Assembly (NCBI GenBank): GCA_021155965.1 | Contig: JAJNBJ010000002.1 | Location: 186,001-250,000, forward strand | Direction: 5' to 3' | Length of the DNA stretch: 64,000 nucleotides | Source of the DNA: Flavipsychrobacter sp. | GTDB taxonomy: Bacteria; Bacteroidota; Bacteroidia; Chitinophagales; Chitinophagaceae | Shown: positions 916 to 64,000 of the stretch, in pieces | How positions within the stretch are numbered: position 1 is the first letter of the stretch | Layout of the letters: each line of letters begins with the position of its first letter | Translations under genes and position numbers: made by a program | The notes under the pieces: model-generated | The model's input: the letters and a program-made list of their open reading frames with translations, nothing else | Database searches by the model: none | What the model was told of the DNA's origin: nothing

Positions 916-932
916 CCTAATTGAAGGAACCT

Positions 933-33172: not shown

Positions 33173-34216
33173 ATGAAGAAATTATTAGTTGGAGTTAGTG
33201 CAGCAATGATGTTGGCAGGTTCAGCAGTGGCGCAGGATGTGCATTTTACTCAATATTTCACATCACCCCTGACCTTAAACCCCGCAATGACAGGCTTTGT
33301 ATCTGAAGACCTTCGTTTTGCTGCGAACTACCGTACACAGTGGTCGTCTGTATCATCTGCACCATATACCACAGGCTCTATATCTTTTGACATGGCCACA
33401 CTGAAAGGCAAGTTGCCAGAGGGTGATGCATTGGGACTGGGCTTAATGGTTCAGTATGACAAGGCAGGCACTGGCAGCCTTAAAAACACTACAGCAGGCT
33501 TGTCCTTATGCTATCACAAAGCGTTCGGTTACGACAGGCAGCAGCACCTTTCGATAGGCTTACAGGGTTATTATGTGATGAAAACCATCGATTTCGCCAA
33601 ACTGACCTTCGGGGACCAATTTAATCCCGGTACCGGCACTTTCTCCAACGCTACCCTGGAAACCTTCGCAAAGCAAGACCTGAATTATATGGATATTAAC
33701 GGTGGCCTTATGTATTCGGGCAGGGTACATGACCATGTGATCTTCTATGCAGGTTATTCATACTACCACCTTACCCAGCCGGTAGAAACTTTCTTTGACA
33801 AAGAAACGCACCAGATACATGCACGCCACACAGGCTACCTGGGCGGCACTTTCGAAATGAATGAGAATACGCAGCTTTATGCAAGCGCCCTTTACCAAAG
33901 CCAGGCTTCAGCAACTGAAATATTACTGGGTGCCGCTGTTGGCTTTGTGCTTAACCCCGGCCACGATGCCGAATACCAGAAAAATACAATATTCTATCTT
34001 GGCGGCTGGTATAGGTACGGCGATGCTGTTGCCCCTTATGTTAGCCTCGAATGGTCTAAAATGCGTATAGGCCTTAGCTATGATGTTAACATTTCCAGCT
34101 TCAGCCCGGCCACAAACGGTGCTGGTGCTTACGAAATATCACTACAGTACTTCGGCCGCATCAACAGGCACGAAAGGAACCCGGTTTATAACTGGTCTTG
34201 TCCTAAACTTTACTAA
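33173..34216 (+). CDS. PorP/SprF-family T9SS outer-membrane protein
   Basis: Protein of 347 aa from ATG 33173 (an in-frame TTG at 33149 adds eight codons before the signal peptide). The signal ends at GSAVAQ and is followed by the family hallmark VHFTQYFTSPLTLNPAMTG, then an outer-membrane beta-barrel with many aromatic strands (YAGYSYYHLTQPVETFF, IFYLGGWYRYGDAVAPYV). In Flavobacterium johnsoniae, SprF is needed to secrete the giant gliding adhesin SprB. Paralogues are typically encoded next to large T9SS cargo. Here the gene is divergent from the 3,111-aa protein, its probable client. Those known clients mostly have type B tails, whereas this neighbour has a type A tail. Confidence 0.9.
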   Translation: MKKLLVGVSAAMMLAGSAVAQDVHFTQYFTSPLTLNPAMTGFVSEDLRFAANYRTQWSSVSSAPYTTGSISFDMATLKGKLPEGDALGLGLMVQYDKAGTGSLKNTTAGLSLCYHKAFGYDRQQHLSIGLQGYYVMKTIDFAKLTFGDQFNPGTGTFSNATLETFAKQDLNYMDINGGLMYSGRVHDHVIFYAGYSYYHLTQPVETFFDKETHQIHARHTGYLGGTFEMNENTQLYASALYQSQASATEILLGAAVGFVLNPGHDAEYQKNTIFYLGGWYRYGDAVAPYVSLEWSKMRIGLSYDVNISSFSPATNGAGAYEISLQYFGRINRHERNPVYNWSCPKLY

Positions 34217-39872: not shown

Positions 39873-42800
39873 TTATTGTTCAACAATAATGTAGAATACT
39901 CTACTACCGACAGCTGACTGCATGTTGAGCAGGTACATGCCATTGGCAATTCCACTTATCTGTACTGTTTCACATATTTTACCTTCCTGGGCCATCACCT
40001 TACTGACATAAATGGATTGACCAAGCATATTTGTGAATTCAAACATCACTTCAACATCCTCTGTCACTCCCAAATTGCCTTTTACGTTGAAGACGCCCTT
40101 ATTTGGATTGGGTATTACACTCACATTGAAAACAGATTCAACTTCGGTACCGGCCATGTTTTCATGAACTCCTCTAAAACCTGTTGGTGTGACAGAAACC
40201 ACACGCGTTGCACGGCAGCCTGTTGACAAAGTATAGCTGATAGTTGATGCGCCCAACGACACACCTGTAACTATGCCACTTGAAGAACCAACAGTCGCGA
40301 TAGAGGGGCTGCTGCTGCTCCACGTGCCACCAGAGGGGAAACCTGATAATGCGGTGGTTGCAGCTGGGGCTACCGTCATACTACCGCTAATAGATGGTAA
40401 TGGATTGACAACAACGGTTGCGCTGCCGGACATGTTAACCATGCAGGTAGTTGAAGTATTGGTGGCTGTTACTGTATAGGTACCGGCAATAGTATGCGTG
40501 CCGAAGCTCAATGCAAAACCAGTACCTGAAAGCGTGCTAATAAGTAAAGTGCCACGGTATAGTTTGTAGCTGACACCACTTGCAGAGCCGCTAAGCCCAA
40601 TGCCTACTCCGGCACCTCCGGCACATAAGCTACCTCCGCCCGTAACAGTATAAACTGAAGGCAACGGATTTACAACTATAGTAGCACTACCCGACATACT
40701 GCGTACACAGCCAGTGGTAGCATTTGATGCAACAACCGTATAGCCACCCGCTGTTGTAAAGGTGCCCATGCTTATTGCAGAACCAGTACCCGCAACAGCA
40801 GAACCGACCATTGCCGTACCCCTATACAATTGATAGTTAATACCTGTTTGTGAACCGGATACGTTAATCGAGTATCCTGCACTGCCTGCACACAAAGTAC
40901 CACCGCCCGTAACGGAGTATAATGTTGGCAATGAACCAGAGGTTATGGTGGCGCTGCCGGTCATTGTTGCGGTACATGAAGTTGTTCCGCTGGTAGCAAT
41001 TACCGTATAGGCACCTATGGCAGTAAACAGTCCAAAATCAATAGTCGCACCGGTACCTGATACCGGACTACCTACCAGCGTTGAACCATAATACAAGCGA
41101 TATGTGACACCCGTAGATGAACCACTAAGGTAAACATGATAACCAAGACCTGAACAGTAAGCACCGCCACCCGATACCGTATAAGCTGTTGGAGCAGTCG
41201 TCACGCTCACCGTAGCGCTTCCGGCCATATTACTTGTACATGTGGTAGTTGTATTTGTTGCAACTACAGTATATGTTCCTGCTACAGTTTGAAGGCCAAA
41301 GCTGATCGCACCGCCTGTGCCGGATACCGGGCTTCCGATCGGTATACCACTTCTGAACAATTGATAGCTGATCCCGGATGCAGAGCCACTCAAGCCAATA
41401 CCAATGCCGGTACCGCCTGAACAATAAGTGCCGCCACCAGTAATTGAGTAAACAGCCGGCAATGAATTTACGGTTACCGTAGCTGTACCGGTCATGTTAG
41501 CAGTACAACCCGTACCTGTATATACTGCTGTTACGCTATAAGTACCCGCAACTGTCTGTAAGCCAAAGCTAAGCGGAGAGCCAGTACCTGCTATTGCGCT
41601 GCCAACCAATGTCGCACCACGTTTCAACTGGTAGTTAACGCCGGATTGAGAACCACTTAAGCCAATGTTAACACCCGTACCACCTGTGCAGTAACCACCA
41701 CCACCTGTAACGCTTTGAGCGGTTGGTAATGGGTTAACGGTAATTGTAACGCTGCCCGACATAGTATTGGTGCAGCCGGTTGCAGCATGTGTTGCTATCA
41801 CCACATAAACACCAGCAGCAGTTCTTGTACCGAAGCTTAGTGCTGTGCCCGTACCAGCTACAGGACTGCCTGCCGGGGTACCATCAAGATATAACTGGTA
41901 GTTAACTCCAAGAGCTGAGCCCGCCAGCCCTACTGACAAACCGACGCCGCCTGCGCAATAACTGCCTCCGCCTGTGACAGCGTATGCAGTGGGCAGTGTA
42001 TAAGTACCAACAGTAGCTCCACCGGACATTGTGCTTGTGCAACCAGATGTAGCGTCAGTGGCAATAACCATATAAGAACCAGTGGTTGTTTGCAAACCGA
42101 AGCTTATGGCTGCACCTGTACCTGCAACAGGCGAACCCACTGTTATAGTACCCCTGTAGAGCTGGTAGTCAACACCGGTTGCAGAGTTTGCCAAGCCGAT
42201 ATTAACGCCACTGCCACCTGTGCAATAAGAGCCACCGTCCGTAACTACATATACTGTTGGCCTGCTATTGATCGTTACCGTAGCAGAGCCGGTCATGTTG
42301 GTGGTACAGCCTGTTGATGAGATAACCGCAACAACAGTATAAGTTCCCGATACCGTCTGTAAACCAAAACTGATCATAGAACCAGTTCCCGCAACTGTTG
42401 TGACGAACGTAGTTCCCCTATACAATTTATAGCTTACACCACTGTGAGAGCCACTTAAGCCTACGGTGATACCGCTGCTACCTGAGCACGCACTACCACC
42501 ACCTGTAACAGTAAAGGTTGCAGGAGTTGCATTGATAATAATGGTTGCGCTGCCAGACATTGTTCTTGTACATGTTGCCGAACTATTTGACGCAACTACT
42601 GTATATATGCCTGCGCTTGTTTGAGCGCCGAAGCTAATTGCTGTACCAGTTCCTGATACCGGACTGCCAACAGGACTTCCTCCATTATATAACTGGTAAT
42701 CCATGCCTGCCTGAGAATTCGAAAGGCCTATTGCTGCTCCCGAGCCACCTGCGCAATAACTGCCCCCGCCCGTCACGCTGTAAAGAGCAGGCGTTGTGTT

Positions 42801-45800
42801 CACAACTACAGTTGCACTGCCGGTCATAACAGAAGTACAAAGTGTAGCAAGGTTACGCGCAGTTGCCGTGTAGGTACCTGCCGTTGCCTGCAGGCCAAAA
42901 CTTATTGCGGATCCCGTACCTGCTACTGCTGCACCAACAGGGGTACTGCCGAGATAGAGCTGATAGCTGATGCCGGTTGCTGAAGAACTTAAACCAATGG
43001 CAACTCCCGTGCCGCCACTGCAGAACGCGCCGCCGCCTGTTACGGTGAATGGAGCCGGAACAGGGTTAATCACTATGCTGACGGTACCACTCATGCTGTT
43101 TGTGCACATGGTAGTTGTATTAGTTGCGACAACGGTATATGTTCCTGAAGATGTCTGCAGGCCAAAGCTGACAGCACTACCGGTACCGGTAATTGGTGAG
43201 CCAAGTGCGGTAGCGCCATTATACAGCTGGTAGCTGATACCAAACTGAGAGCCTGAGAGCCCTACTGCAACACCTGAGCCACCGGCACAATAACTACCGC
43301 CACCTGTTACAGTGAACGCTGTAGGTAATGCATTGACCGTGATCGTAGCACTGCCGGACATATCAATGGCACATCCCGAACCAGGCATTGTTGCAACCAC
43401 GGTATAAGTGCCTGCTGTAGTTTGTGGCCCGAAGGTAATTGTACCGCCTGTTCCCGCAACCGGGCTACCTATAATTGCCGTTCCCCTGTATAATTGGTAG
43501 CTAACTCCAGCCTGGGAACCAGCAAGGCCAATGGTCAGACTTGGGCCGCCTGAACAATAGCTACCACCACCGGTTACCGTATAAACAAGCGGCACCGGGT
43601 TGACGGTTATGGCTTTGGTTACATAACAGCCTGTAGGCAATGTGAACGAAATAACAGCCGTGCCTGCGCCCACACCGCTAACTGCGCCTGAAGCGGAACC
43701 AACAGAAGCTACAGTTGCGCTGCTGCTGCTCCAGGTAGTTGAACCAGAAGTCGTGCCCAAGGTAGTTGTGGATCCTTCGCAAACTGTTGAAGGACCTGTT
43801 ATTGGCAACGGCAGCGGGCTGATCGTCACAGGTTGCGTTACAAAGCAACCTGTAGGGAATGTATAAGAGATAACAGGAGCACCGGCACTTAAGCCTGTAA
43901 CGATACCCGAGCCAGATACTGTAGCCTGGGTAGCAACACTACTGCTCCACGAACCACCTGTAGCTGTAGTGCTTAATGCAAGCGTTTGGCCTACACATAT
44001 TGCACCTGCGCCTGTGATAGGAGCGGGCAAAGGATTAACCGTAACAACTGCTGTTCTGCTGCAAGTAGTACCAAGCGTATAAGTGATCGTTGTTGTACCC
44101 GCTGAGATACCGGTAACAGCACCACCGGATACTGTAGCTGTTGAAGGATTGCTACTGGTCCATACACCTCCTGAAGGAGTAGACACCAGCGTAACAGTAG
44201 CACCGACACAAACGTTCAGCGTTCCTGTTATGGCTGATGGATTTGGGTTAACCGTAACAGGCACCGTAGCAATACAGCCTGTAGGCAATGCGTATGTAAT
44301 AACCAGCATGCCTGCGCTGATACCTGCAACAAGACCACCTGTTACTGTTGCCAATGCCGCACTACTACTGCTCCACGAGCCGCCGGTAGTAAAGCTGGTC
44401 AGTGTAGTGGTCGCCCCTACGCAAACGCTTGCCGGACCTGTTATTGCAGCAGGCAATGCATTCACGGTAATTGTATAGGTAGTAAAACAGCCTGTTGGCA
44501 GTGTATAGGTAATGATAGCATTACCTGCGCCTACGCCTGAAACAACACCACTTGTACTTACCGAAGCCAGCGTGGTATTGCTACTGCTCCAGGAGCCACC
44601 GGACGTTGCATTGCTAAGCGTAACAGCAGAGCCCACGCACACACTTGACGAACCCGTAATGGAAGCAGGCAATGCATTTACCGTTATCACAGATGTTGTA
44701 AGACAGCCCGTAGATAACGTATAAGTAATTGTCGGTGTGCCAGATGCTACACCGGTTACCATGCCTGTGGTAGCACCAACATTCGCCTGAGAAGTATTGC
44801 TGCTTGTCCATGTGCCGCCTGTTGTACTTGCCAGTGTTGTGGTACCACCTACACAAACATTCATTGTCCCGGTAATTACAGCGGGCAATGGATTAACCGT
44901 TACTGTTGTTGTAACAAAGCAACCAGTTGGTAATGTGTACGTAATTATGGCAGTACCCGCAGATACGCCAACTATCCTGCCCGGCGTTGTACCAATACCA
45001 GCTACCAGATAATTACTGCTCGTCCATGCACCGCCGGAAGGTGATGATGACAAGGCAGATGAGGCACCTGCACACATAACTGCTGAGCCCGTGATCGAAG
45101 AAGGAGTTGTATTAACAGTAATTACAGCTGTAGTAATACAACCAGTTGACAACATATATGTGATCACCGGGTTACCCACATTTACACCAGAAACAATACC
45201 GGTTGAACCAACCGTTGCAAGACTTATACTGCTGCTGCTCCATGTACCACCGCCGGGGCTGGAAGCCAAAGCAGTTGTGCCGCCGACACATACAGCTCTA
45301 ACGCCTGAAATAGTAGCCGGCAATGGATTAACAGTTACGCCGGTCGTAATAAAACATCCGGTTCCCAGTGTATAAGTAATGATCACATTCCCAGCAGTTA
45401 CACCTGTCACCGCACCAGTTGAAGGAACTACAGTTGCAATAGCCGTATTACTGCTGCTCCATGTACCACCGGTTACTGAATTGGTCAGGGTAGTTGCTAG
45501 GCCAACACATACATTCGTTGTGCCGCCTATCGTAGCAGGTATCGGGTTAACAGTTACTACCGCAGTTCTGAAACAGCCTGTCGGCAAAGCATAAGTAATG
45601 GTTGGCGTGCCCGCTCCCATTCCGGTTACTACCCCTAGGGTAGAGGTAACATTTGCCTGTGAGGTATTACTGCTCGTCCATGTACCACCACCGGTTGCAC
45701 TTGCCAGTGGTGTTGCAGCCCCTACGCAGACATTCAATGTACCGGTAATAGGCGAAGGCAATGGATTAACAGTAACTATTACAGAAACGCTACAACCGGT

Positions 45801-57800: not shown

Positions 57801-60800
57801 AGTAATAATACCAGATGCATCTACTTTACGGATGCGATGGCTTCCAATATCAGCAATATACATGGACCCGGTCGCATCAACAGCCACACTAAACGGCGTG
57901 TTGAACCTTGCAGCAGTAGCAGGACCACCATCACCGAAGAACCCACTGCTGCCACTACCGGCTACAGTACTAATGATACCGGATGTATTCACTTTGCGTA
58001 TCCGTTGGTTATTCAGATCGGCTATATACAGGTTGCCAATAGCATCCACTGTCATTTGCTGGGGGTAGTACAGGGTTGCAGCAGTAGCGGGACCGCCATC
58101 ACCTCCATAGCCGCCACCGCCATTACCGGCAACAGTACTAATGATACCCGAGGTGTTCACTTTGCGGATGCGCGAATTGTTGTTATCAACAATATACAGG
58201 TTCCCGGTAGCATCGGTAGCCAGACCCATAGGATAATAGAGGTTAGCTGAAGTAGCAGGACCACCATCGCCGCCAAACCCGCCGCCGCCATTGCCTGCAA
58301 ACGTGCTGATAATACCCGAGGTATTCACCTTACGGATACGGTGGTTACTTTGGTCGCCGATATAAACGTTACCTGCGGCATCCACTGCCACGCCATATAT
58401 ACCGTTAAATGTTGCAGCTGTTGCAGGGCCGCCATCACCGCTGAAGCCACCGCTGCCCGTACCTGCGAATGTGGTCATAATGCCCGAGGGGCTTACTTTA
58501 CGCACGCGCTGATTGCCTGGATCTGCGATATAGACATTGCCTGCAGCATCCACTGCTGAGGCGCGGGGATAATTTAACCTGGTTGAAGTAGCAGGCACGC
58601 CATCGCCGGTATAACCATTGCTTCCGTTGCCGGCAATAGAATTGATGTTACCAACTGCACTGCCACCACTGCTGCTTGTTATGGGCAATGGAGTAGGATT
58701 AACAGTTACTGCCATTGCGCTATAACAACCTGTGGCTGGCATTGTATAGCTGACAGTTGACGTGCCTGCGGCAATACCCGTCACTGCACCCACAGTTCCG
58801 TTTACCGCTACATTCCCGTTACTGCTGCTCCATATCCCACCCGACGGTGTGCAGTTAAGTGTGGTTGTAAAGGTCTCGCACAACACATTTGAACCTGTTA
58901 TAGCCGCCGGCGTCTGGTTTACCGTAACTTCCGTAGTTCTGTAGCACCCAGCGGGCAACATATAAGTAATGGTAGCTGTGCCGGCTGTTACACCTGTTAC
59001 AGCGCCTGTAGTTGAGTTGATGGTCGCATTGCTGTTGCTGCTGCTCCATATACCACCGGGCGTAGCATCTGATAGCGCTACTGTAGCCCCTTCACATACG
59101 GCGACATTGGCACTCAAATTGATCTTGCGTACACGCTGGCCATCTGCTTCAGTCACATATAGGTTACCGGAAATATCTATAGAAGCATGTATCGGATAAT
59201 ATAGCAAAGCTGCGGATGCAGGACCACCGTCGCCGCCATAACCCGCGCTGCCGTTGCCGGCAATAGTACTGATGATGCCTGATGCATCTACTTTACGGAT
59301 GCGATGGTTTCCATAATCTGCGATGTACATTGCGCCGCCGACATCAACTGCTACACTAAATGGCGTATTGAACCTTGCCGCTGTAGCAGGGCCTCCGTCG
59401 CCGAAGAACCCACCGCTGCCACTACCGGCTACTGTAGTAATGATACCTGACGTATTCACCTTGCGGATACGCTGGTTGTTCAAATCGGCTATATACAGGT
59501 TGCCAATAGCATCAACAGCCATTTGCTGGGGGTAGTAAATACTAGCTGAAGTAGCCGGGCCACCATCCCCACCATAACCTCCGCCTCCATTTCCAACCAC
59601 CGTACTGATAATACCTGATGTATTTACTTTACGGATACGGTGGTTTTGCTGATCTACGATAAATACATTGCCAGTAGCATCTGTGACCACTCCCATAGGG
59701 TAATACAAATTAGCTGCGGTAGCAGCACCGCCATCGCCGCCAAACCCACCGCCACCATTACCCGCAAAGGTGCTTATGATTCCCGATGGATTTACCTTGC
59801 GGATACGGTGGTTCCCGTAATCAGAAATATATACGTTACCTGCTGCGTCTGTTGCTACACCAAACATGTTACTAAATGTTGCCGCGGTGGCAGAGCCGCC
59901 ATCGCCGCTGAAACCACCACTTCCTGTACCTGCGAAAGTGGTAATAATGCCCGCGGGGCTAACCTTGCGCACACGGTTATTGCTAAGATCTGCGATATAG
60001 GTATTGCCTGCCGCGTCTACAGCCGTAGCGCGGGGATAATATAACCTGGTTGACGTTGCCGGAACACCGTCACCGGTATAGCCTGCGCTGCCGTTGCCTG
60101 CAATAGAATTGATGATACCAACTGCACTGCCACCACTGCTGCTTGTTATCGGCAATGGAGTAGGATTAACAGTTACTGCCATTATGCTATAACAACCTGT
60201 GGCGGGTATTGTATAACTGACAGTTGACGTGCCTGCGGCAATACCCGTCACTGCACCCACAGTGCCACTTACCGCTACATTGCCGTTACTGCTGCTCCAT
60301 ACACCACCTGACGGTGTGCAATTCAAAGTTGTGGTAAAGGTCTCGCACAACACATTTGAACCTGTTATAGCTGCCGGTGTCTGATTTATGGTTACCACCG
60401 TTGTGCGGTAACATCCCGCAGGCAACATATAGGTAATAGTGGCCGTGCCAGCTGTTACACCTGTTACTGCACCTGTAGTTGAGTTGATGGTAGCATTGCT
60501 GTTGCTGCTGCTCCATACACCTCCGGGGGTAATATCAGATAATGTTATAGTAGCCCCTTCACAAACGGCGGCAATGCTGTTGATTTCTATCTTACGGATA
60601 CGATGATTATAATAATCAGTAACATATAGATTTCCTGAAAAATCCAAAAACAGATGTGACGGATGAAATAAAATACTGGCTGACGCAGGAACACCATTGC
60701 CACTAAAACTACCGCTGCCATTCCCTGCAATAGTGCTGATAATCCCTGATGCAGTTACTTTACGGATACGATGATTATTGTGATCAGCAATATACATTGT

Positions 60801-63800
60801 CCCGAGCGCATCAACTACTACACTCATTGGATTATTCATACTAGCAGCGGTAGCAGGCCCACCATCGCCACTAAAACCAGCGCTCCCATTACCTGCCACA
60901 GTAGTAACAATACCGGATGTATTCACTTTGCGTATACGACGATTAAAGATATCAGCGATGTATAGATTGCCACCGCCATCTACCGATATTTGTTCCGGAT
61001 AATTGAACGATGCTGATGTAGCAGGACCACCATCGCCACCAAAGCCTGCACCGCCGTTCCCAGCAACAGTGCTAATGATACCAGAGGTATTCACCTTGCG
61101 CACACGCTGGTTGCTTCTGTCACTGATGTATAGATTTCCTATTGCATCAGTAGTAATACCATATGGATATTGGAGGCTTGCCCCTGACGCAGGTCCACCA
61201 TCACCGGCAAATGTACCGATGCCATTACCTACCACAGTGGTTATAATACCCGATGTATTAACCTTACGGATACGATGGTTATTCGCATCGGAAATATAAA
61301 CATTCCCTGCAATATCAGTAGCCACGCCATATATGGCACTAAATGTTGCGGCAGTAGCAGGCCCGCCATCGCCGCTGAAGCCACTGCTACCTGTTCCTGC
61401 AAAAGTGCTGATCACCCCAGATGGAGTTACTTTACGCACACGGTTATTACTCAGGTCTGCGATGTACGCATTTCCATTTACATCAACAACTGTTGCACGC
61501 GGAAAATATAAAGCGTATCCTGTGGCTGGCGCACCATCGCCACTGTAACCTCCACTTCCGTTACCGGCAATGGTGTTGATGTTGCCAATTGTACCAGTAA
61601 AACTAGAGTTTTGGATAGGGAATGGTGTCGGGCTAACGGATACAACCATTGTGCTATAACAACCAGTCGCCGGTAATGTATAACTGACAGTTGATGTGCC
61701 AGCTATCCAACCTGTCATTGCACCTGTATTTATATCAACAGATACATTATTATTGCTGCTGCTCCATACGCCACCGGCCGGTGTGCAATTAAGCGTTGTG
61801 ATAAATGCAAACGTCTCGCATATAGTATTTGATCCTGTAATAGCAGTAGGCAATGCATTTACGGTTAGTGCTATTGTTTCATAGCATCCTGCCGGCAGCG
61901 TATAAGTAACGGTGGAAGTACCTGCAGTAATACCGGTTACGAGGCCACTGGCGGAGCCAATTGTCGCATTACCATTATCTATACTCCAGGTGCCTCCTGC
62001 TATTGCATTAGACATAGTTATTGAAGATCCGGTACAAACATTAACCTCCAGCGTTCTTGATATTTTACGCATACGGTTATTATTAACATCCGCGAGATAA
62101 ATATTACCATAACCATCAACACTTACCCCTATAGGACCGTTCATCCTGACAGTTGCAGCCGTTGCAGGGCCGCCATCACCAACATACCCACCTGAGCCAT
62201 GCACGCCGCTCAAGGTGGTGATAATACCCGAAGGATTGACTATGCGCAGACGGGGCGAGCAATAGTCGCCGATGATCACATTTCCGTTCACATCCACATC
62301 CAGGCCATAAGGACAACTTAACTGTGCTGACACCGCAGGGATACCATCAGCAGTGGAACTGCCTCCGCCGGCAAAAGTGGTTATAATGCCTGAAGTATTT
62401 ACTTTACGGATACGATTGGTATTCAAATCAGATATGAACAGGTTACCCGTCGCATCTATAGCTACGCGGAATGGATTCATTCCTGCCGATGTGGCAGCGC
62501 CACCATCGCCACTGGTGCTGCTGGAGCCATTGCCGGCTACAGTAGTGATGATGCCAGTTGGATCAACCTTCCGGATACGGAAGCTATTGTCAGCAATGTA
62601 TAGATTTCCTGTTGCATCAAGGTATACTCCCGAGGGGCGGAACAGCCTTGCTGCAGTGGCTTGACCACCGTCACCGGAAAAGCCGGCCGAACCTATCCCC
62701 GCAAAAGTGCTGATAATACCCGATGTATTTACCTTGCGTATCCTGTGATTGTTATAATCAGCAATATACATGTTGCCTGCTGCATCTATAGCCACATCCC
62801 ATGGATTATAGATGGTTGTTGCCGTAGCGGCCACACCATCGCCGCCATACCCTGTGCCGCCATTACCTGCGACAGTAGAGATCACACCTGAGGTGCTGAC
62901 CTTGCGAATACGATGCCCTGCGTTAGACGCTATATACACATTGCCCAATGCGTCAATCCTCGCAGAATAAGGATCATAAATCGCTGCTGCCGTTGCAGCG
63001 CCGCCATCACCGCTTGTTCCGGTACCTCCATTGCCCGCAAACAGGTTTATATTGCCGGTTGTGCCTGTACCAACGCCACTGCCCACTATGCGGCGGGGCA
63101 TTGCATTAACTGTGGCAACCGTGGTTGCATAACAACCTGTAGGTAAAACATAAGTAATGATGGGGAGCCCTGCTGTTACACCCGTCACCACACCGGTGCT
63201 TCCGTTTACAACTGCATTACCATAACTGCTGCTTGCCCAAGTACCACCCGCAGGGGTGGCATTGAGTGTTGTAATTGCCCCCTCACATATTACAGCGGTG
63301 TTAGTGATAGCAGCTGCTGCGTTCACAGTTAATGCAATGGTCGCAAAACAACCTGCCGGCAAAGTATACGTTATTGTAGCCGTGCCAGCCGTTACTCCTG
63401 TCACTACGCCTGTGGCTGCTACTACGGTAGCATTTGCGTTACTGCTTGTCCACGTACCACCGGCTATTGAATTAGATAATGTAATTGTTGCCCCTTCGCA
63501 TACGTTCGCTACGGAAGACCTCATCACTTTGCGTATCCGATTGTTACTGGCATCAGCAATATAGATGTTGCCCAGCACATCCAGCGATACTGCACGTGGG
63601 AAATTCATCGTTGCAGCAGTCGCAGTACCGCCATCCCCACTATAACTGCCAGTACCGGTTCCCGATACTGTATTGATAATACCCGATGCATCCACCATAC
63701 GCACACGGTGGTTGCATCCATCAGCAATAAATACATTGCCATTCGCATCTGTGGCCACACCATAAGGGCAACTCAAAGCTGCTGCCGTGGCAGGTATCCC

Positions 63801-64000
63801 ATTCGCTGCTGATCCGCCGCCACCGGCATAGGTACTTATAATACCTGAAGTATTTACTTTACGTACCCTGCCAGAGCTGGCATCTGCAATATAGATATTA
63901 CCTGCAATGTCCACACTCAATCCATATGGTGTGAATGTAACGCCGGCCGCTGTGGCAATACTGCCATCGCCACCCGTGCCGCTGCTTCCTGTACCTGCAA
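39873..64000 (-). CDS. giant T9SS-secreted propeller/Ig fibre protein, at least 8,042 aa (N-terminus outside window)
   Basis: One frame is open from the right window edge to the stop at 39873, at least 8,042 codons. No start or signal peptide is visible; the first in-frame TTG/ATG-like codon lies inside an NHL blade. Order from the visible N-terminus: the last three blades of a propeller and two Ig-like domains; six supermodules (six NHL blades plus two Ig-like domains each); one more propeller with two Ig-like domains. Then three PKD-like domains (SYSWSGPSGF type), 39 consecutive Ig-like repeats, 12 VTGGGSYCAGG repeats of ~89 aa, one Ig-like repeat and a T9SS type A tail (VIPNPNKGVFNVKG to the end). 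It is rich in Gly, Ser, Thr and Val and carries two Cys per Ig repeat. A very long surface fibre or adhesin is likely. It is among the longest bacterial genes, so assembly should be verified. Confidence 0.9.
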   Translation of the reverse strand, partial: AGTGSSGTGGDGSIATAAGVTFTPYGLSVDIAGNIYIADASSGRVRKVNTSGIISTYAGGGGSAANGIPATAAALSCPYGVATDANGNVFIADGCNHRVRMVDASGIINTVSGTGTGSYSGDGGTATAATMNFPRAVSLDVLGNIYIADASNNRIRKVMRSSVANVCEGATITLSNSIAGGTWTSSNANATVVAATGVVTGVTAGTATITYTLPAGCFATIALTVNAAAAITNTAVICEGAITTLNATPAGGTWASSSYGNAVVNGSTGVVTGVTAGLPIITYVLPTGCYATTVATVNAMPRRIVGSGVGTGTTGNINLFAGNGGTGTSGDGGAATAAAIYDPYSARIDALGNVYIASNAGHRIRKVSTSGVISTVAGNGGTGYGGDGVAATATTIYNPWDVAIDAAGNMYIADYNNHRIRKVNTSGIISTFAGIGSAGFSGDGGQATAARLFRPSGVYLDATGNLYIADNSFRIRKVDPTGIITTVAGNGSSSTSGDGGAATSAGMNPFRVAIDATGNLFISDLNTNRIRKVNTSGIITTFAGGGSSTADGIPAVSAQLSCPYGLDVDVNGNVIIGDYCSPRLRIVNPSGIITTLSGVHGSGGYVGDGGPATAATVRMNGPIGVSVDGYGNIYLADVNNNRMRKISRTLEVNVCTGSSITMSNAIAGGTWSIDNGNATIGSASGLVTGITAGTSTVTYTLPAGCYETIALTVNALPTAITGSNTICETFAFITTLNCTPAGGVWSSSNNNVSVDINTGAMTGWIAGTSTVSYTLPATGCYSTMVVSVSPTPFPIQNSSFTGTIGNINTIAGNGSGGYSGDGAPATGYALYFPRATVVDVNGNAYIADLSNNRVRKVTPSGVISTFAGTGSSGFSGDGGPATAATFSAIYGVATDIAGNVYISDANNHRIRKVNTSGIITTVVGNGIGTFAGDGGPASGASLQYPYGITTDAIGNLYISDRSNQRVRKVNTSGIISTVAGNGGAGFGGDGGPATSASFNYPEQISVDGGGNLYIADIFNRRIRKVNTSGIVTTVAGNGSAGFSGDGGPATAASMNNPMSVVVDALGTMYIADHNNHRIRKVTASGIISTIAGNGSGSFSGNGVPASASILFHPSHLFLDFSGNLYVTDYYNHRIRKIEINSIAAVCEGATITLSDITPGGVWSSSNSNATINSTTGAVTGVTAGTATITYMLPAGCYRTTVVTINQTPAAITGSNVLCETFTTTLNCTPSGGVWSSSNGNVAVSGTVGAVTGIAAGTSTVSYTIPATGCYSIMAVTVNPTPLPITSSSGGSAVGIINSIAGNGSAGYTGDGVPATSTRLYYPRATAVDAAGNTYIADLSNNRVRKVSPAGIITTFAGTGSGGFSGDGGSATAATFSNMFGVATDAAGNVYISDYGNHRIRKVNPSGIISTFAGNGGGGFGGDGGAATAANLYYPMGVVTDATGNVFIVDQQNHRIRKVNTSGIISTVVGNGGGGYGGDGGPATSASIYYPQQMAVDAIGNLYIADLNNQRIRKVNTSGIITTVAGSGSGGFFGDGGPATAARFNTPFSVAVDVGGAMYIADYGNHRIRKVDASGIISTIAGNGSAGYGGDGGPASAALLYYPIHASIDISGNLYVTEADGQRVRKINLSANVAVCEGATVALSDATPGGIWSSSNSNATINSTTGAVTGVTAGTATITYMLPAGCYRTTEVTVNQTPAAITGSNVLCETFTTTLNCTPSGGIWSSSNGNVAVNGTVGAVTGIAAGTSTVSYTMPATGCYSAMAVTVNPTPLPITSSSGGSAVGNINSIAGNGSNGYTGDGVPATSTRLNYPRASAVDAAGNVYIADPGNQRVRKVSPSGIMTTFAGTGSGGFSGDGGPATAATFNGIYGVAVDAAGNVYIGDQSNHRIRKVNTSGIISTFAGNGGGGFGGDGGPATSANLYYPMGLATDATGNLYIVDNNNSRIRKVNTSGIISTVAGNGGGGYGGDGGPATAATLYYPQQMTVDAIGNLYIADLNNQRIRKVNTSGIISTVAGSGSSGFFGDGGPATAARFNTPFSVAVDATGSMYIADIGSHRIRKVDASGIITTIAGNGTASYGGDGGPASAALLYSPIHTALDLQGNLYVTEESGQRVRKINLSANVTVCEGATVPLSDATPGGVWSSSNSNATINSTTGAVTGVTAGTATITYMLPAGCYRTTEVTVNPTPAAITGSTVICETFTTTLNCTPSGGVWSSSNGNVAVSGTVGAVTGIAAGTSTVSYTIPATGCYSAMAVTVNPTPLPITSSSGGSAVGNINTVAGNGTAGYTGDGVPATSTRIYYPRATAVDAAGNIYIADQSNNRVRKVSPSGIMTTFAGTGGGGFSGDGGPATAATFNTIFGVAADGAGNVYITDHGNHRIRKVNTSGIISTVAGNGSGTFAGDGGQATAASLRYPWGVATDVSGNLYIMDRENQRVRKVSTSGVITTVAGNGGAGFSGDGGPATNASVYYSEQITVDATGNLYIAEVNLARVRKVSTSGIITTVAGNGSGGFSGDGGPATSAMLSAPDGVAVDATGSIYIADLGNRRVRKVSTSGIITTISGNGSTSSTGDGGPASAATLYSPIHTALDAVGNLYVTEHDGHRVRKINHTANVTVCEGATVSLSDLTPGGVWSSSNSNATINSATGVVTGVTAGTATITYMLPAGCYRTTVVTVNQTPTAITGTTVVCATFTTSLNSTPSGGVWSSSNSNASVHASTGVVTGMLAGTSTVSYTLPATGCYNTTVVTVNPTPLPITGGGGGTVGNISTIAGNGGAGYSGDGIAATSTTLYYPRAVAVDAAGNAYIADQSNNRVRKVSPTGIITTFAGTGGGGFGGDGGPATAATFSGVLGVAVDGSGNVYVADQSNHRIRKINTSGIISTVAGNGGSGFGGDGVPATSTSLYYPIGVAIDATGNLYIADNSNSRIRKVNTSGIISTVAGNGSAGFGGDGGPATIATLYYPQNVAVDALGNVYVADLNNQRVRKVNTSGIITTVAGTGTYNFSGDGGPATAATFRTPIGIAADAAGNLYIADIDNHRIRKVDATGMISTIAGTGGAGFSGDGAPASAATLYSPINTCVDPAGNLYVVDYNNHRIRKVSLNASVTVCTGQTVTLSDPTPGGTWSSSNSNVSVGSTGVVTGISAGTSVVSYTLPAGCYATTVVTVNATPTLTTSPNTTLCVGASATLTVSGATTYSWSPSASLSCNTCATTTATPFITTIYSVTGTSSAGCVASATIAVTVNPSPSYITSGGSGTITNISTIAGNGGAGYSGDGVAATSSSLNYPRAVAIDASGNRYIADPGNNRVRRVSSSGIITTFAGTGGGGFSGDGGPATSATFNGIYGVAVDGFGNVYISDQGNHRIRRVNTSGIITTIVGNGGIGFFGDGGPATNANLYYPMGVTVDAIGNLYIADNSNSRIRKVNTSGVISTVAGNGSVGYGGDGGSATAATLYYPQEMAVDAAGNLYIADLNNHRIRKVNTSGIITTVAGNGSSAFFGDGGPATAAGLNAPYGVTTDVTGSVYIADLGNSRIRKVNASGIISTVSGNGSFGFGGDGGPASSATLYQPINVSVDPAGNLYVVDYINQRVRKVDITTTVAVCVGSTATLENATPGGIWSSSNSNASVNSTSGVVTGVTAGTSVISYTMPGGCYKTITVTINPLPATITGTTSICAASNTTFASATTGGVWSSSDLSVATIGSSTGVITGVSGGVAVITYTSPATACFTTKSLTVTALPVITIGNSSPLCIGGFVNLSASATGAGALSYSWSGPGFSSTLTNPAIASVTLANAGTYTVSVTSAATGCTGRSTTTVTINPVPTTTPTNTSPVCYGGTVNFNAAATATGPISYSWVGPSMFTSAIATPSLSGVTSSNAGAYIITVSTPGSGCITSAVTHVTINPIPAAAPSSSGPICLGGTATLYANPVSGTGVTSYSWSGPSGFTSTTAIVSVSPTVTSTYSLTVTGTSTSGCTSTVYTTTVSVNTPPTVITGTLAMCVGASNTLSSTPSGGTWTSSNTFVATIGATTGVVTGVAAGTATITYTLGTSCFVTTTVTINGLPPTITGISNICSGGSATLANTVAGGVWSSSNPSVAAISSSSGTYTGGIAGTATITYTLPTGCLTITTVTVTGAPAAIMGTMSACVGGFMALGSATSGGTWSSSAPLVGSIAGTGVVTAIAAGTSNITYTIVPGCYTAAQVTVNPLPGAITGTRTMCVGNGTTLSCATPGGTWSSSNMSVAVIGLTSGIITSGVAGTATITYSLSTGCFTTTTVTVSPLPSAITGTTAICVGSTSTLSSSPLGGTWSLSNYTLANVVPVLGTVTGLAAGNPTATYTLTTGCFITRVITINPLPAAISGTTALCEGGSTTLTSSPGGGTWSSSNPAVATIGPSTGLVNALVAGTTNIVYTLPTGCSVSVTLTINTTPSSISGTSVYCVGNTATLTATPGGGTWSTSSTSVATVSAGGGVNAVSSGTATITYGFSTGCRAVKAITVNPNPSAISGTTTLCIGGSATFTSTPGGGTWTSGNPSVASVGGSTGLVSGLATGTAVITYTISTGCFATATVTVNTVPAAITGSFLLCPAGSTTLSDATPGGTWSSSNTSVAMIGSSSGTLTAMAAGTATISYSVAGAGCWATQVVTVNPAVAAITGTFAVCSTATTTLSSTTSGGTWSSSTPAVATIGSTTGLVIGLTPGTTTINYITPGVGCAATRIVTINPLPAAIGGTATVCVGLTTALTNATAGGTWSSSNTSIAVVGSSSGVVTGVVAGNANIVYTLPTGCTATLAITVNPLPATITGGSTVCVASTITLVSSPTGGTWSSSNPTVASMGTGSGNVSGLAPGVTTITYTLPTGCIMTKVITVNPLPAAITGTLAVCPMNSSTLSSATPGGAWTSSMPSVAVAWPTGLIMGAAAGVTTISYTLPTGCWTTTGFTVNPLPAPITGTAVVCMGNTTALSSSTTGGTWSSSAIGIAFVGSTGVVTGVTAGTATITYTLSTGCYTTKILTVNTIPAAIGGIPVVCVGSMTTLYDLTPGGTWTSSNLSLATVGSMTGTVTGVAVGNPVITYALSTGCLRTVVMTVNITPSAITGSTSVCAGSTTTLSSTPSGGMWISANPSVAVVNSTSGLVTGISGGTATIKYMLATGCAVSVSFTVNPLPAAISGASTVCVGSATTYTNSVTGGSWTSSNAAVASVGSASGVVSGNTAGTATITYTLATGCFVTKAITVNPLPAAIGGAGAVCVGSAITLTNTTAGGVWSSGSTTIATIGSTGVAIGIAAGTSVITYMLSTGCFVTTVITINPLPATITGALTVCVGATTTLSSTTSGGVWTSSNIAVGSIGSSSGIASGITQGITVISYTLPTGCMRTAVLTVNTTPVPISGASSVCVGLSTTLTNGTTGGTWSSTIPSVAFAGSTGVVTGLTAGTATISYTLSTGCFAILPFTVNPLPSMPTGVLTVCVGSTTTLTNSSPGGTWISSDMSLATVNSTSGLVTGVAAGNPSIIYTLPTGCTSSVVVTVNPLPSVLTGPSTVCIGSAITLTSSPLSGTWSSSNPLQASVSLGVGLVTGVAVGTPNITYTLPTGCMRAMNITVNPVPAAITGTLNVCIGNTTLLASTTSGGSWSSSSPAATVVGGLVTGASAGIAVITYMLPTGCMATAVVTVNPVPSSIAGTTNVCVGSTVTLSSSPTAGSWISSNPSMATVSGLGLVTGLAVGNPTITYALSTGCMATTVITVNPVPTPVTGTMTICVGAQTTLNSTPSGGSWTSSSTSLATVISGTGVVTGAGAGNPLISYTLSTGCRAIAIITVNPNPAAITGTPVVCIGSIVTLTQTTPGGTWSSSNTGLATVGIVSGDVVGVAAGNPVISYTLPTGCFVTVTATVNPVPTPIIGTRSVCVGSTTALASSPGGGTWSSSSTSLATVGPTGVVLGLAAGNPNITYALSTGCNAIAPVTVNPLPAGITGATNVCVGSAITLTSATSGGSWTSSNAGVASVSATGVVGGVLAGNAIITYTLPTGCFVTQAITVNPLPASIGGSLAVCAGSTITLTTSSTGGTWSSSAPTIATVGSTGIVSSLTAGNTAINYTLPTGCSVSVIVTVNPLPSPITGTLNVCVGAATPLASATGGGTWTSSNTSQANVTSTLGVVTGMGAGTPTITYALPTGCFRTAVVTVNPIPATIGGTTNVCVGLATTLTNSVTGGTWSSSNTAIATVVPSTGAVTGVTAGNVIITYTLGTGCFITTGVTVNPLPATISGVRAVCVGGTTALASSPGGGTWSSSSISLATVGSTGIVSGVNVGNPVITYMLSTGCITTAVITVNTTPSSITGSAVMCAGASSALSSSPSGGAWTSSNYLVAGIGTTPGRIVGVSAGTAIITYTLPTGCFVTTTVTVNPLPAVITGTMNVCVGGTTTLASTTGGTWTSSNTSQANVGATTGMVTGVASGTPTITYTLSTGCLTTSVITVNALPASITGSSSVCVGSAVTLSNATSGGSWSSSNTTLASVSTSGVVSGVGAGNAIITYTLPTGCFTTYTITVNALPAAITGPASVCVGATTTLTSFTTGGSWSSSSAALATVTGGLVAGISAGMLVITYALPTGCIATVPVTVNPNPSAITGTLNVCVGATVTLVSTPSGGVWTSSNPSTATVSGGAVTGISAGTTTITYTLGTTCSRTAVVTVNPLPAPITGAGAICVGQTLALSTTATGGSWSSSVATQATVSGSGIVTGLSAGAPVISYTFPTGCFVTQPVTISPLPLPITGPSTVCEGSTTTLGTTSGSTTWSSSSATVASVGSASGAVSGVGAGTAVISFTLPTGCYVTKAITVNPVPLVYTVTGGGSYCSGGPSLTIGLAGSQAGVSYQLYRGTAIIGSPVAGTGGTITFGPQTTAGTYTVVATMPGSGCAIDMSGSATITVNALPTAFTVTGGGSYCAGGSGVAVGLSGSQFGISYQLYNGATALGSPITGTGSAVSFGLQTSSGTYTVVATNTTTMCTNSMSGTVSIVINPVPAPFTVTGGGAFCSGGTGVAIGLSSSATGISYQLYLGSTPVGAAVAGTGSAISFGLQATAGTYTATARNLATLCTSVMTGSATVVVNTTPALYSVTGGGSYCAGGSGAAIGLSNSQAGMDYQLYNGGSPVGSPVSGTGTAISFGAQTSAGIYTVVASNSSATCTRTMSGSATIIINATPATFTVTGGGSACSGSSGITVGLSGSHSGVSYKLYRGTTFVTTVAGTGSMISFGLQTVSGTYTVVAVISSTGCTTNMTGSATVTINSRPTVYVVTDGGSYCTGGSGVNIGLANSATGVDYQLYRGTITVGSPVAGTGAAISFGLQTTTGSYMVIATDATSGCTSTMSGGATVGTYTLPTAYAVTGGGSYCAGGVGLSVGLAGSALGVNYQLYLDGTPAGSPVAGTGTALSFGTRTAAGVYVVIATHAATGCTNTMSGSVTITVNPLPTAQSVTGGGGYCTGGTGVNIGLSGSQSGVNYQLKRGATLVGSAIAGTGSPLSFGLQTVAGTYSVTAVYTGTGCTANMTGTATVTVNSLPAVYSITGGGTYCSGGTGIGIGLSGSASGISYQLFRSGIPIGSPVSGTGGAISFGLQTVAGTYTVVATNTTTTCTSNMAGSATVSVTTAPTAYTVSGGGAYCSGLGYHVYLSGSSTGVTYRLYYGSTLVGSPVSGTGATIDFGLFTAIGAYTVIATSGTTSCTATMTGSATITSGSLPTLYSVTGGGTLCAGSAGYSINVSGSQTGINYQLYRGTAMVGSAVAGTGSAISMGTFTTAGGYTVVASNATTGCVRSMSGSATIVVNPLPSVYTVTGGGSLCAGGAGVGIGLSGSASGVSYKLYRGTLLISTLSGTGFALSFGTHTIAGTYTVTATNTSTTCMVNMSGSATVVVNPLPSISGSMTVAPAATTALSGFPSGGTWSSSSPSIATVGSSSGIVTGVSLGASTISYTLSTGCRATRVVSVTPTGFRGVHENMAGTEVESVFNVSVIPNPNKGVFNVKGNLGVTEDVEVMFEFTNMLGQSIYVSKVMAQEGKICETVQISGIANGMYLLNMQSAVGSRVFYIIVEQ
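40400..43590 (-). repeat. 12 tandem ~89-aa VTGGG-type repeats
   Basis: Period is about 266 bp. Each unit has VTGGGSYCAGGSGV, GLSGS, SYQLYRG, GSPVAGTG, SFGLQT, AGTYTVVAT and a Cys near CTSTMSGSATV. A single unit of the same kind occurs in the 3,111-aa protein. Confidence 0.88.
43590..52085 (-). repeat. 39 tandem Ig-like repeats
   Basis: Adjacent units are spaced 213 to 219 bp (71-73 aa); three successive anchors near 44040, 44253 and 44466 are exactly 213 bp apart. Consensus elements are AITGT..VCVG, TLSS, GGTWSSSN, ATVGSSTGVVTGV, AGTATITYTLPTGC and VTVNPLP. Confidence 0.9.
52085..52800 (-). repeat. three PKD/Ig-like domains of another type
   Basis: Three units of about 80 aa have the pattern SPLCIGG, SYSWSGP, a TYTVSVTSAATGC-like end and TVTINP. 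They separate the propeller half from the long Ig array. Confidence 0.75.
53245..54250 (-). repeat. last NHL propeller of the giant protein
   Basis: Six NHL blades ending in YINQRVRKV. They are followed by Ig-like domains that differ from those of the supermodules. Confidence 0.85.
54250..63055 (-). repeat. six tandem 489-codon supermodules (NHL propeller + two Ig-like)
   Basis: The same junction codon (the Gly before Asn-Ile-Asn/Ser at each propeller start) lies at 63055, 61585, 60118, 58651, 57184, 55720 and 54250. Spacings are 1470, 1467, 1467, 1467, 1464 and 1470 bp, all multiples of three. The segment starting CCAACTGCACTGCC is almost unchanged at 57184, 58651 and 60118, which points to recent in-frame duplication. 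In the module nearest the C-terminus (54250-55720) the second Ig-like domain is replaced by a different one (YSWSPSASLSC). Confidence 0.92.

Follow-up and report, generated by a model that had tools for sequence, protein, structure and literature searches.

The locus studied here raises the question of whether a reading frame that runs off the edge of the analyzed DNA after more than 8,000 codons belongs to a real gene, and what kind of protein such a gene would encode. The window, a stretch of 64,000 nucleotides from a Flavipsychrobacter sp. contig, had been predicted from its letters to carry an exceptionally long modular surface protein exported by the T9SS. We reconstructed the complete gene, its domain map, its relatives within the genus and its genomic neighborhood, and weighed several explanations of its function.

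Reading frame and completeness of the gene

The frame at 39873..63998(-) comprises 8,041 codons (8,015 from a TTG) with zero stops up to the window edge; as predicted, it is long and finds no start within the window. Joined to the upstream region C16:245001-265000, the stop-to-stop frame extends to 9,551 codons, and its first ATG opens a complete gene for a protein of 9,520 aa (928 kDa) that is closed by a TAA at 39873. The upstream end of the gene, C16:254435, is located 4,435 bp beyond the window (L009:5001-9435), and 1,478 of the 9,520 residues are encoded wholly outside it. The upstream extension, which the original prediction had proposed as a check, thus supplied both the ATG and an N-terminus, MKQFNFGRKVFSVWMVLCALFTGMQHSKAQ, that looks by eye like a signal peptide. 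Mononucleotide shuffles (n=20) contained a mean of 469 in-frame stops and the other five frames over the same DNA contain 247-818, and a chance open frame is therefore excluded. The gene has no ambiguous bases (N), and stop codons between modules, named beforehand as a ground for rejection, are not present. The stop codon is followed by an intrinsic-terminator-like hairpin (Table 1), terminator-like sites being found twice versus 0.1 expected in shuffles; the promoter motif TAnnTTTG is absent from the 320 bases upstream of the gene. The giant gene is real and complete.

Domain organization

The domain map of the giant consists of (i) 66 NHL blades, forming 11 propellers of six blades each with Ig domains between them, (ii) three Ig domains, (iii) 39 Big_2 domains, (iv) 12 Ig_7-type domains, (v) one more Big_2 domain, and (vi) a type A T9SS tail, with about 74 Ig-type domains in total (Table 1). 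The counts of 39 and 12 were obtained with models built from the giant protein itself; Pfam alone, searched on three pieces covering the whole length, recognizes fewer of them: 17 stretches of Big_2 score above cut-off within the C-terminal 4,375 aa, and 3 of Ig_7 within the last 1,009 aa. The predicted order of heads, Ig stalk, second stalk and sorting tail is upheld by this map, in which the 39 Big_2 units take the place of the "~40-domain Ig stalk" and the 12 Ig_7-type units that of the "second repeat stalk". The accompanying view that the architecture is without a described match needs qualification, as its modules belong to known families (NHL/TEN_NHL, Big_2, Ig_7, Big_9, and Por_Secre_tail), and the claim that no described system could be matched does not hold for the Ig_7 stalk, which has a described relative, GhpA of Aureispira. 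The most likely product is an extremely long fiber on the bacterial surface, whose stalk of Ig-like beads carries eleven propeller-shaped heads.

Table 1. Features of the giant gene and its product (window positions; residues in the complete protein)
Feature	Position	Strand
Giant gene, in-window part (residues 1480-9520 and TAA stop)	39873..64000	-
Signal-peptide-like N-terminus, propellers A and B, Big_9, super-repeat 1, start of super-repeat 2	residues before 1480, outside window	-
Super-repeat 2, in-window part (six-blade NHL propeller and two Ig; residues 1480-1778)	63102..64000	-
Super-repeat 3 (NHL propeller and two Big_2-type Ig; residues 1796-2269)	61629..63050	-
Super-repeat 4 (residues 2286-2758)	60162..61580	-
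Super-repeat 5 (residues 2775-3247); protein 87% identical to super-repeat 6	58695..60113	-
Super-repeat 6 (residues 3264-3736); modelled, mean pLDDT 92.5	57228..58646	-
Super-repeat 7 (residues 3753-4225)	55761..57179	-
Super-repeat 8 (residues 4241-4715); second Ig of another, Ig_2-like type	54291..55715	-
Super-repeat 9, last propeller and two Ig (residues 4731-5205)	52821..54245	-
Three Ig akin to the Ig_7 type (residues 5213-5451); Pfam Ig_2 weak, 18.4 bits, below cut-off	52083..52799	-
39 tandem 73-aa Big_2 domains (residues 5454-8281); 0.88% charged	43593..52076	-
12 tandem 89-aa Ig_7-type (PF19081) domains (residues 8287-9348); by sequence homologous to GhpA shaft	40392..43577	-
Last Big_2 domain (residues 9348-9417); sole Big_2 unit with a single Cys	40185..40394	-
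Type A T9SS C-terminal sorting domain (residues 9441-9520)	39876..40115	-
Intrinsic-terminator-like hairpin with T-run, 23 bases 3' of stop codon	39817..39849	-

Assembly, selection, and probable growth of the gene

The longest exact repeat within the gene is 66 bp, silent sites between repeat units are near saturation, and pN<pS in every pair of units (2,145/2,145 blade, 741/741 Big_2, and 66/66 Ig_7 pairs, the pairs being non-independent); an assembly artefact is therefore unlikely. Collapsed or chimeric repeats, or a dead gene with a frame kept open by composition, might be suspected from the 50 contigs of the assembly, from the protein identity between super-repeats that reaches 87%, and from the relatives, where the giant gene does not occupy the same place beside the aminotransferase; however, the nucleotide identity between super-repeats is 0.55-0.80, similar giants are present in other assemblies, no N interrupts the gene, and repeat collapse would shorten a gene rather than lengthen it. 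We give such an explanation hardly any credence. The original prediction had also concluded that the frame is under selection as one polypeptide. Purifying selection is borne out; an open frame with a tail demonstrates selection on modules rather than the production of one 928-kDa chain.

In the tree of propellers, where the bootstrap had not settled, super-repeats 4-9 form one clade (100/100), and super-repeats 1-3 form a second one (100/97) whose sister is the propeller found in the giant of genome G027 with 9,621 codons (95/90); propellers A and B lie outside both. The gene probably grew by in-place duplication of a propeller-Ig-Ig unit, within a lineage where numbers of propellers and Ig domains vary widely and different heads are placed on a similar Ig stalk.

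Secretion tail and proposed function

The predicted complete type A sorting tail was recovered as Por_Secre_tail PF18962 above its cut-off (30.9 vs 27 bits); its NCBIfam twin TIGR04183 scores 19.7 bits on the same tail, below the cut-off of 23. A genome-wide search with PF18962 yielded at least 150 matches, every one listed being above cut-off, and the tail of the giant is not among these listed matches (150 of 230 candidates scored). In addition, a 2,534-codon frame of the genome encodes a SprA_N translocon protein (E 2.9e-150; control, 0/14 genomes). Because the T9SS signal is located at the extreme C-terminus, export through the outer membrane could begin only after all of a 928-kDa chain had passed the inner membrane.

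Taken as a whole, these features are best explained by a T9SS-exported fibrillar surface protein acting as a long multivalent tether, a reading that we consider probable on balance. Its N-terminal half, 11 six-bladed NHL beta-propellers spaced by Ig domains, would serve as a multivalent head, and its C-terminal half, with 3 + 39 + 12 + 1 Ig-like domains, as a stalk. The type A tail would route the protein through SprA/Sov, and would be cleaved, as is usual in this pathway, upon attachment to the cell surface. The tether would then bind a repeated ligand, such as a glycan or the surface of a cell or particle, via variable positions of the propellers.

Propeller heads

The AlphaFold2 model of super-repeat 6 (Table 1) finds its best Foldseek match in a Teneurin-like protein from bacteria, with which it shares 44% identity in 394 aligned columns, and in this model the propeller of the giant is nearest to the six-bladed NHL propellers of such proteins (PDB 9ifo; PMC13018210). 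A Teneurin identity, which would call for a YD shell and an FN plug besides the NHL propeller, was rejected: the propeller is shared, and the Pfam matches of the giant include no YD/RHS shell and no toxin domain.

The blades combine a fixed framework with nine positions of entropy above 2.5 bits (10, 23, 25, 26, 28, 35, 43, 44, and 46); at the variable positions 25, 26, 28, and 46, an aromatic residue or His is observed in 32-44%. In the Pfam search, these blades are also matched by SGL and by further families of propeller enzymes, and a histidine kinase-LytTR pair adjoins the gene, which would suit propellers that are catalytic in the NHL/SGL manner or that sense a ligand and feed the neighboring kinase. 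No SGL stretch passes on its own, however, and the match fits the propeller repeat shared by these families; a framework that stays fixed while certain positions vary, repeated in many copies, is better suited to binding. For ScyF (NF035926), piece 1 of the protein passes (399 vs 350 bits), the score being summed over 16 stretches, and piece 2 remains below the cut-off (267.8). A whole-protein ScyF score is unsuitable on account of the added propellers, and the ScyF name was not adopted; automatic naming can mislead where part of a giant exceeds an equivalog cut-off. An enzymatic or sensory role of the propellers thus appears very unlikely.

The D-S/T-A/I/L/V/M/T motif is the general O-glycosylation motif of Bacteroidetes. 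It is missing from four regions that cover 9,003 of the 9,520 residues, and we did not count this as evidence because Asp occurs at a few fixed blade positions. An adhesive role for the NHL heads is putative, since the main text of a survey of fibrillar adhesins does not contain the term NHL (PMC8286594).

The Ig stalk and its described relatives

Two features of the stalk were found here, one Cys pair per domain and an almost complete lack of charge; a third feature, of the locus, is the place of the gene behind a histidine kinase-LytTR pair. At least two Cys are present in 56/57 Big_2 and 15/15 Ig_7-type units of the giant, and among model matches in other giant frames of the genus, 381/382 Ig_7-type and 102/107 Big_2 units contain exactly two. 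The stalk Ig domains, with one Cys pair nearly everywhere, are probably clamped by one predicted disulfide each. K+R+D+E account for 0.88% and 2.17% of the two stalks, which are rich in Ser/Thr/Gly. The Big_2 stalk has 19 K+R in 2,828 residues, and trypsin would release from it a single peptide of 7-35 aa; hence trypsin-based surface proteomics would be nearly blind to this stalk, and stalks of its kind would generally escape the ordinary form of that method. If confirmed, the almost uncharged, Cys-paired Ig bead would offer a building block. A model of three Big_2 units was set aside (pLDDT <50, built on four sequences).

A near-uncharged, Ser/Thr/Gly-rich stalk would suit packing or a brush, and many such giants are made by the genus, as might be expected if the protein helped to build an extracellular matrix, a sheath or a biofilm and its propellers associated with one another. 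We regard this as unlikely, since the heads differ among the giants and also behind the same kinase-regulator pair, which resembles diversified recognition more than a lattice common to all.

The sole PDB match of the Ig_7 array at E<=0.1 is GhpA (E 4.7e-44), the grappling hook protein A of Aureispira sp. CCB-QB1, represented by PDB 9flp and seven other entries; judged from sequence, the two stalks are homologous. The seven best Foldseek matches of the array model are all GhpA pieces, with TM to query of 0.32-0.39, and a longer query gave significant matches at GhpA 1124-4611, two non-significant ones N-terminal to that region of GhpA, and a strong composition bias. Both proteins have a very long Ig-domain shaft with Ig_7 units closest in fold, and Cys residues are kept in the one alignment shown; GhpA has 5,898 aa vs 9,520 in the giant, and no NHL propeller match was seen for it. 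GhpA hooks are reported to be secreted by the T9SS (PMC11205867). Accordingly, the giant might instead be a released or multimeric catching filament that seizes prey or flagella rather than a permanently anchored adhesin: the shaft is homologous in sequence and fold, the heads are N-terminal and distant from the tail, and T9SS substrates may be released as well as anchored (PMC10202324). Against this, the N-terminal third has 65 PDB matches, and GhpA is absent among the best 60; VipB of the T6SS sheath, the single component searched, has 0 matches in the genome (the control was positive in E. coli only, 1/14 genomes, so that a Bacteroidota sheath might escape the search). We consider a catching filament rather unlikely and did not assign the giant to the GhpA-type grappling hooks; the resemblance is kept as a stalk that may work alike.

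Fibrillar adhesins with a Por_Secre_tail anchor share with the giant a tandem Ig stalk, a T9SS tail, and a head distal to the anchor; the survey lists 1-73 stalk domains, vs the approximately 74 Ig-type domains and 11 propellers of the giant, whose head end contains NHL propellers only (PMC8286594). The giant adhesin of Mobiluncus mulieris (7,651 aa, 51 Ig-like domains) likewise has a stalk of Ig beads with covalent cross-links within domains, but these are ester/isopeptide bonds and the protein has a cell-wall anchor, whereas the giant has one predicted disulfide per domain, T9SS export, and propeller heads (PMC10619420). Another very large Bacteroidota T9SS substrate is the gliding adhesin SprB of Flavobacterium johnsoniae (PMC10202324). 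Identity with SprB was rejected on the basis of the Pfam matches of the three pieces and of the tail type. The tail of SprB is of type B and that of the giant is of type A, and these matches include no PF13573, the family of the SprB repeats.

Giants and multi-propeller proteins of the genus

The genus has at least 18 frames longer than 5,000 codons, including that of the window, and two of them are longer than it; from another phylum, a frame of 39,678 aa has been published (PMC10066038). The isolated extreme length implied by the original prediction is thus not supported. A Big_2 and/or Ig_7-type stalk is shared by giants G029:C10 (11,279 codons), G027:C44 (9,621), G007:C56 (7,207), and, from the same genome, C37 (5,284) and C2 (4,579). 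Several genus giants have Big_2, then Ig_7, then a type A tail, and the tail is above cut-off in 7/7 other giant frames tested (G007:C56 and C37 were left out). Their heads are different, with at most six NHL blades each among the giants compared.

Frames that combine several propellers with Big_2 are likewise common in the genus. In another set of 17 blade-bearing frames, the blade number is a multiple of six in 16/17 and Big_2 units are present in 15/17. Blade counts range from 12 to 33 on Big_2 stalks (33 in G019:C180, 30 in G015:C28, and 12 in the 3,111-aa paralogue of the window), and the propeller array of the giant is not unique; unlike the giant, these proteins have fewer propellers, and Ig_7-type units occur in 2/17 frames only. 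The giant of the window is the extreme case among the propeller/Ig surface proteins of its genus. If these proteins are what they appear to be, one genus provides T9SS proteins that share one kind of tail and form a natural series in length, from a few hundred to >11,000 residues. On such a series it could be tested how a C-terminal export signal serves a chain of several hundred nanometers, and by what steps giant surface genes lengthen and exchange their heads.

Gene neighborhood and probable regulation

No gene of similar size was found beside the conserved aminotransferase in 20 relatives (six with stretches <8 kb), and in the absence of an orthologous giant there, the kinase-regulator side was compared instead. 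Genes for a histidine kinase and a LytTR response regulator are located directly upstream of the giant on the same strand, and probably control it. Among eight relatives with a kinase homologue, a large protein directly follows the regulator in G002 and G013 only; in both it is a propeller/Ig/tail protein, the tail in G002 being sub-threshold (21.7 vs cut-off 27). These proteins are shorter, about 1.3-1.9 kaa vs 9.5 kaa here, and the heads behind the same pair vary by species (NHL, FG-GAP).

We tentatively read these observations together as a possible, though less than even, case for regulated giant tethers with exchangeable heads in this genus: LytTR two-component pairs would precede propeller/Ig T9SS proteins whose common stalk consists of Ig beads that are nearly uncharged and clamped by disulfides, and the heads, NHL and FG-GAP among them, would be swapped and multiplied in six-blade steps. 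In the window, as the extreme case, one kinase-controlled locus would have expanded to 9.5 kaa and 11 propellers from the approximately 1.3-1.9 kaa seen in relatives. The giant, with its type A tail, lacks the combination of a type B CTD and a cognate PorP/SprF neighbor; a PorP/SprF gene (33149..34216) is separated from it by five genes and adjoins the 3,111-aa paralogue.

Gene structure and reading frame

The window covers positions 186,001–250,000 of contig C16 in a 4.25-Mb genome assembled into 50 contigs (99.78% complete). The long open reading frame claimed in the original prediction is real, running without a stop up to the window edge, and the upstream extension along C16 that it called for yielded a stop-to-stop frame of 9,551 codons, in which an ATG precedes what looks by eye like a signal peptide. 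Counted from that ATG, the encoded protein, hereafter the giant, has 9,520 aa and a mass of 928 kDa. The gene contains no N, and a terminator-like hairpin lies 23 bases 3' of its TAA; it is confirmed to be complete.

Could the length be an artefact of repeat collapse? Exact direct repeats within the 28.6 kb of the gene reach at most 66 bp. The giant contains nine copies of a super-repeat of ~489 aa, consisting of an NHL propeller and two Ig domains; the 36 pairs of these copies show 55–80% DNA identity, with pS of 0.54–0.78 and pN of 0.08–0.34. The dN/dS ratio is 0.055–0.208 for the 26 pairs for which it was computable; silent sites are saturated in the remaining 10. In comparisons that are not independent of one another, pN was lower than pS for all 2,145 blade pairs, all 741 Big_2 pairs and all 66 Ig_7 pairs. 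Because the repeats are so diverged, their sequences make collapse unlikely, and it would in any case shorten the apparent gene.

Domain architecture

Units were counted with repeat models derived from the giant's own protein (see the table). The 66 NHL blades, each of ~56 aa, form a first block of 12 followed by nine blocks of 6, equal to 11 six-blade propellers. Each of the nine later propellers is followed by Big_2-type Ig domains, paired in all but one case. Pfam alone finds fewer units: the C-terminal 4,375 aa hold 17 passing Big_2 stretches, and 3 of Ig_7 pass within the final 1,009 aa. The cut-off of the ScyF equivalog is passed over 16 stretches of the N-terminal part, a trap for automatic naming.

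Coordinates of the giant, its domains and other window features
Feature	Position	Strand
Giant, part within the window	39873..63998	-
Region passing the ScyF cut-off	residues 1-3145 (locus L009:1-9435)	
NHL blades	residues 32-5062	
Big_9, one copy	residues 706-803	
Three Ig domains, Ig_7-related type	residues 5213-5451	
39 tandem Big_2	residues 5454-8281	
12 Ig_7-type	residues 8287-9348	
Single Big_2, then sorting tail	after the Ig_7-type array, C-terminal end	
Histidine kinase and LytTR regulator, then 598-aa protein	14..1709, 1857..3653	+
238-aa protein	3830..4546	+
3,111-aa paralogue	23535..32870	-
PorP/SprF-type outer-membrane protein	33149..34216	+

The AlphaFold2 model of one super-repeat unit, built from 37 aligned sequences, is confident (mean pLDDT 92.5, pTM 0.75). 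In a second model (four sequences), the Ig_7 part is usable, with blocks at 63–96, and the Big_2 part, below 50, is useless.

Exactly two cysteines are present in 51 of the 57 Big_2 units (three in 5 and one in the last unit) and in 15 of 15 Ig_7-type units, spaced by 48–52 and 57–61 residues, and 56 of the 66 blades have none. Model-found units in the other frames of at least 1,500 codons read in the genus (see below), taken with no score filter, carry exactly two cysteines in 381 of 382 Ig_7-type and 102 of 107 Big_2 cases. Because nearly every unit has two cysteines, one disulfide per Ig bead is predicted from sequence. Charged residues are scarce in the stalks, with 25 in 2,828 (0.88%) in the Big_2 stalk and 23 in 1,062 (2.17%) in the Ig_7 stalk; in the heads they make up 9.72%. 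Serine and threonine account for 27% of the giant (residues 1–9520), yet the Bacteroidetes O-glycosylation motif has no occurrence in four scanned regions (9,003 residues).

Relatives and origin of the propeller array

Both the super-repeat and the last 1,233 aa of the giant are matched in all 35 genomes of the genus, own genome included. Among the matches listed, at least 18 frames exceed 5,000 codons, in at least 11 of the 35 genomes and with the giant included; the longest have 11,279 (G029), 9,621 (G027) and 9,551 codons (the giant). Twelve frames of at least 1,500 codons were read from nine fetched places: ten contain at least 20 Big_2/Ig_7-type units, one contains two, and a 1,708-codon neighbour none, the highest Ig_7-type count per frame being 95. 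A block of 11 Big_2 domains between Ig_7 units is common to frames on contigs C37 and C2 of the own genome and in G027. The PF18962 sorting tail scored above its cut-off in the last 300 residues of 7 of 7 genus giants tested, a set outside which G007:C56 and own C37 fall.

Proteins that combine more than one propeller (12 to 33 blades) with Big_2 domains occur in several species of the genus (loci L162, L169, L161 and others). Blade numbers of 6, 12, 18, 30 and 33 were counted in 17 other frames (900 codons or more), a sample from part of the genomes mostly chosen for several propeller matches, and are a multiple of six in 16 cases; the only exception (33 blades, G019) runs off its contig. Since multi-propeller proteins are common in the genus, the giant is the extreme of a continuum and no singular design. 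A query of three Big_2 and three Ig_7 domains matched 165 of 298 genomes of the order, the longest frame listed from outside the genus having 6,424 codons. Within the window lies a second large paralogue of 3,111 aa, with 12 NHL blades, 25 Big_2 domains, Big_9 and a type A tail.

A phylogeny of 54 propellers, with a four-blade paralogue dropped, five of the 29 fetched relative loci (L117-L119, L124, L125) left out and bootstrap unsettled, revealed the following groups: (i) super-repeats 4–9 form one clade (100/100), (ii) super-repeats 1–3 form a second clade (100/97), whose sister is the propeller of the 9,621-codon G027 giant (95/90), and (iii) the second propeller of the protein falls weakly with two own paralogues (83/80), the first being unplaced. 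This topology fits at least two in-place expansions.

Genomic neighbourhood and the kinase-regulator pair

A conserved aminotransferase gene lies downstream of the giant. Beside it, no gene of like size was found in 20 relatives' loci, six of which are stretches of less than 8 kb and little informative. Ig-repeat frames of 2,220–3,766 codons lie within 20 kb in the aminotransferase loci of five other relatives, and that of one relative contains a frame with 18 blades.

More telling is the kinase side. Directly upstream of the giant, on the same strand, are genes for a LytTR response regulator (254-bp gap) and a TPR histidine kinase. Eight of the first nine kinase matches in other genomes were fetched (all except G006), and the regulator is also present in seven of them (43–66% identity); the G017 locus has no regulator match and carries two tail proteins convergent to the kinase. 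Behind the regulator are found a frame of 1,925 codons that encodes a single NHL propeller, 14 Big_2 domains and a sub-threshold sorting tail (G002); a frame of 1,261 codons encoding FG-GAP repeats, 8 Big_2 domains and a sorting tail (G013); as second gene, an SBBP-propeller protein with a tail barely above cut-off (G001); and a kynureninase-like gene on the opposite strand (G034). In G016, G022 and G018 (loci L146, L148, L151) the contig ends within ~1.1 kb behind the regulator, as if a repeat-rich gene there had broken the assembly.

Ten LytTR regulators were found in the own genome. Five kinase-regulator pairs are directly followed by a same-strand repeat or sorting-tail protein, namely the giant, the window's 598-aa protein, one protein on C45 and two on C22. 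As far as they were read, the C45 frame has Ig repeats and lacks a tail, and the C22:10509 frame is without a Pfam match; the tail of the latter was assigned from genome-wide search coordinates. The C2 pair is convergent with a 4,579-codon giant, a tail protein flanks the C17 pair on the opposite side, and the C42, C34 and C14 pairs have no repeat or tail neighbour by our models or among the tail matches listed. The chance of at least five of ten pairs lying beside a tail gene comes to 3e-5 to 2e-4 (150 to 230 tail genes, an estimated ~3,600 genes), a figure that overstates the linkage because the pattern was noticed before the test and because of the limits just given for the C45 and C22:10509 frames. 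The adjacent pair probably controls the giant.

The window repeats the giant's arrangement on a small scale: a histidine kinase and LytTR regulator directly precede the 598-aa protein with an NHL propeller, Big_2 and a type A tail. The adjoining 238-aa protein has a weak Teneurin EGF-domain match (4.6e-7, under the curated cut-off).

Comparison with known systems and likely function

In the Foldseek comparison, the propeller unit is matched best by a bacterial Teneurin-like protein (44% identity across 394 columns). Nearest in sequence to the Ig_7 stalk is GhpA, the grappling hook protein of Aureispira (E 4.7e-44, with no other PDB match at E<=0.1), which also supplies the first seven Foldseek matches of the stalk model (TM to query 0.32–0.39); the large whole-stalk score against GhpA is subject to heavy composition bias and was given no weight. 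Ixotrophy with a T6SS, as in Aureispira, is not supported, because the own genome has no T6SS sheath match (the positive control matched only in E. coli).

Over 41,000 proteins above 5,000 aa are reported in UniProt, those of bacteria being led by NRPS/PKS, with surface proteins next (PMC11573180). Described cases include a 39,678-aa frame in Omnitrophota (PMC10066038) and an Ig adhesin of 7,651 aa whose domains are cross-linked (PMC10619420). One survey counts 124 FA-like proteins with Por_Secre_tail (PMC8286594). Among the matches listed from titles and abstract openings of open-licence literature, none concerned NHL-propeller T9SS giants or LytTR control of their genes.

The giant's sorting tail is of type A, and a T9SS translocon gene is present in the own genome. 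Nine variable positions, four of them often aromatic or His, are set on the fixed framework of the blades, a pattern that fits putative binding heads. At ~4 nm per Ig bead, a length of ~300 nm would come from the 74 Ig-type domains by themselves. With moderate confidence, we consider the giant a fibrillar T9SS surface protein working as a multivalent tether, which would be controlled by the adjoining kinase-regulator pair; this proposed mechanism is independent of whether the propeller array is unique.

The genome has a very large T9SS cargo list, with at least 150 type A sorting-tail matches in 4.25 Mb (150 of 230 candidates scored). The window also encodes, in divergent orientation to the 3,111-aa paralogue with its type A tail, a PorP/SprF-type outer-membrane protein, a family whose usual partners are type B tails.
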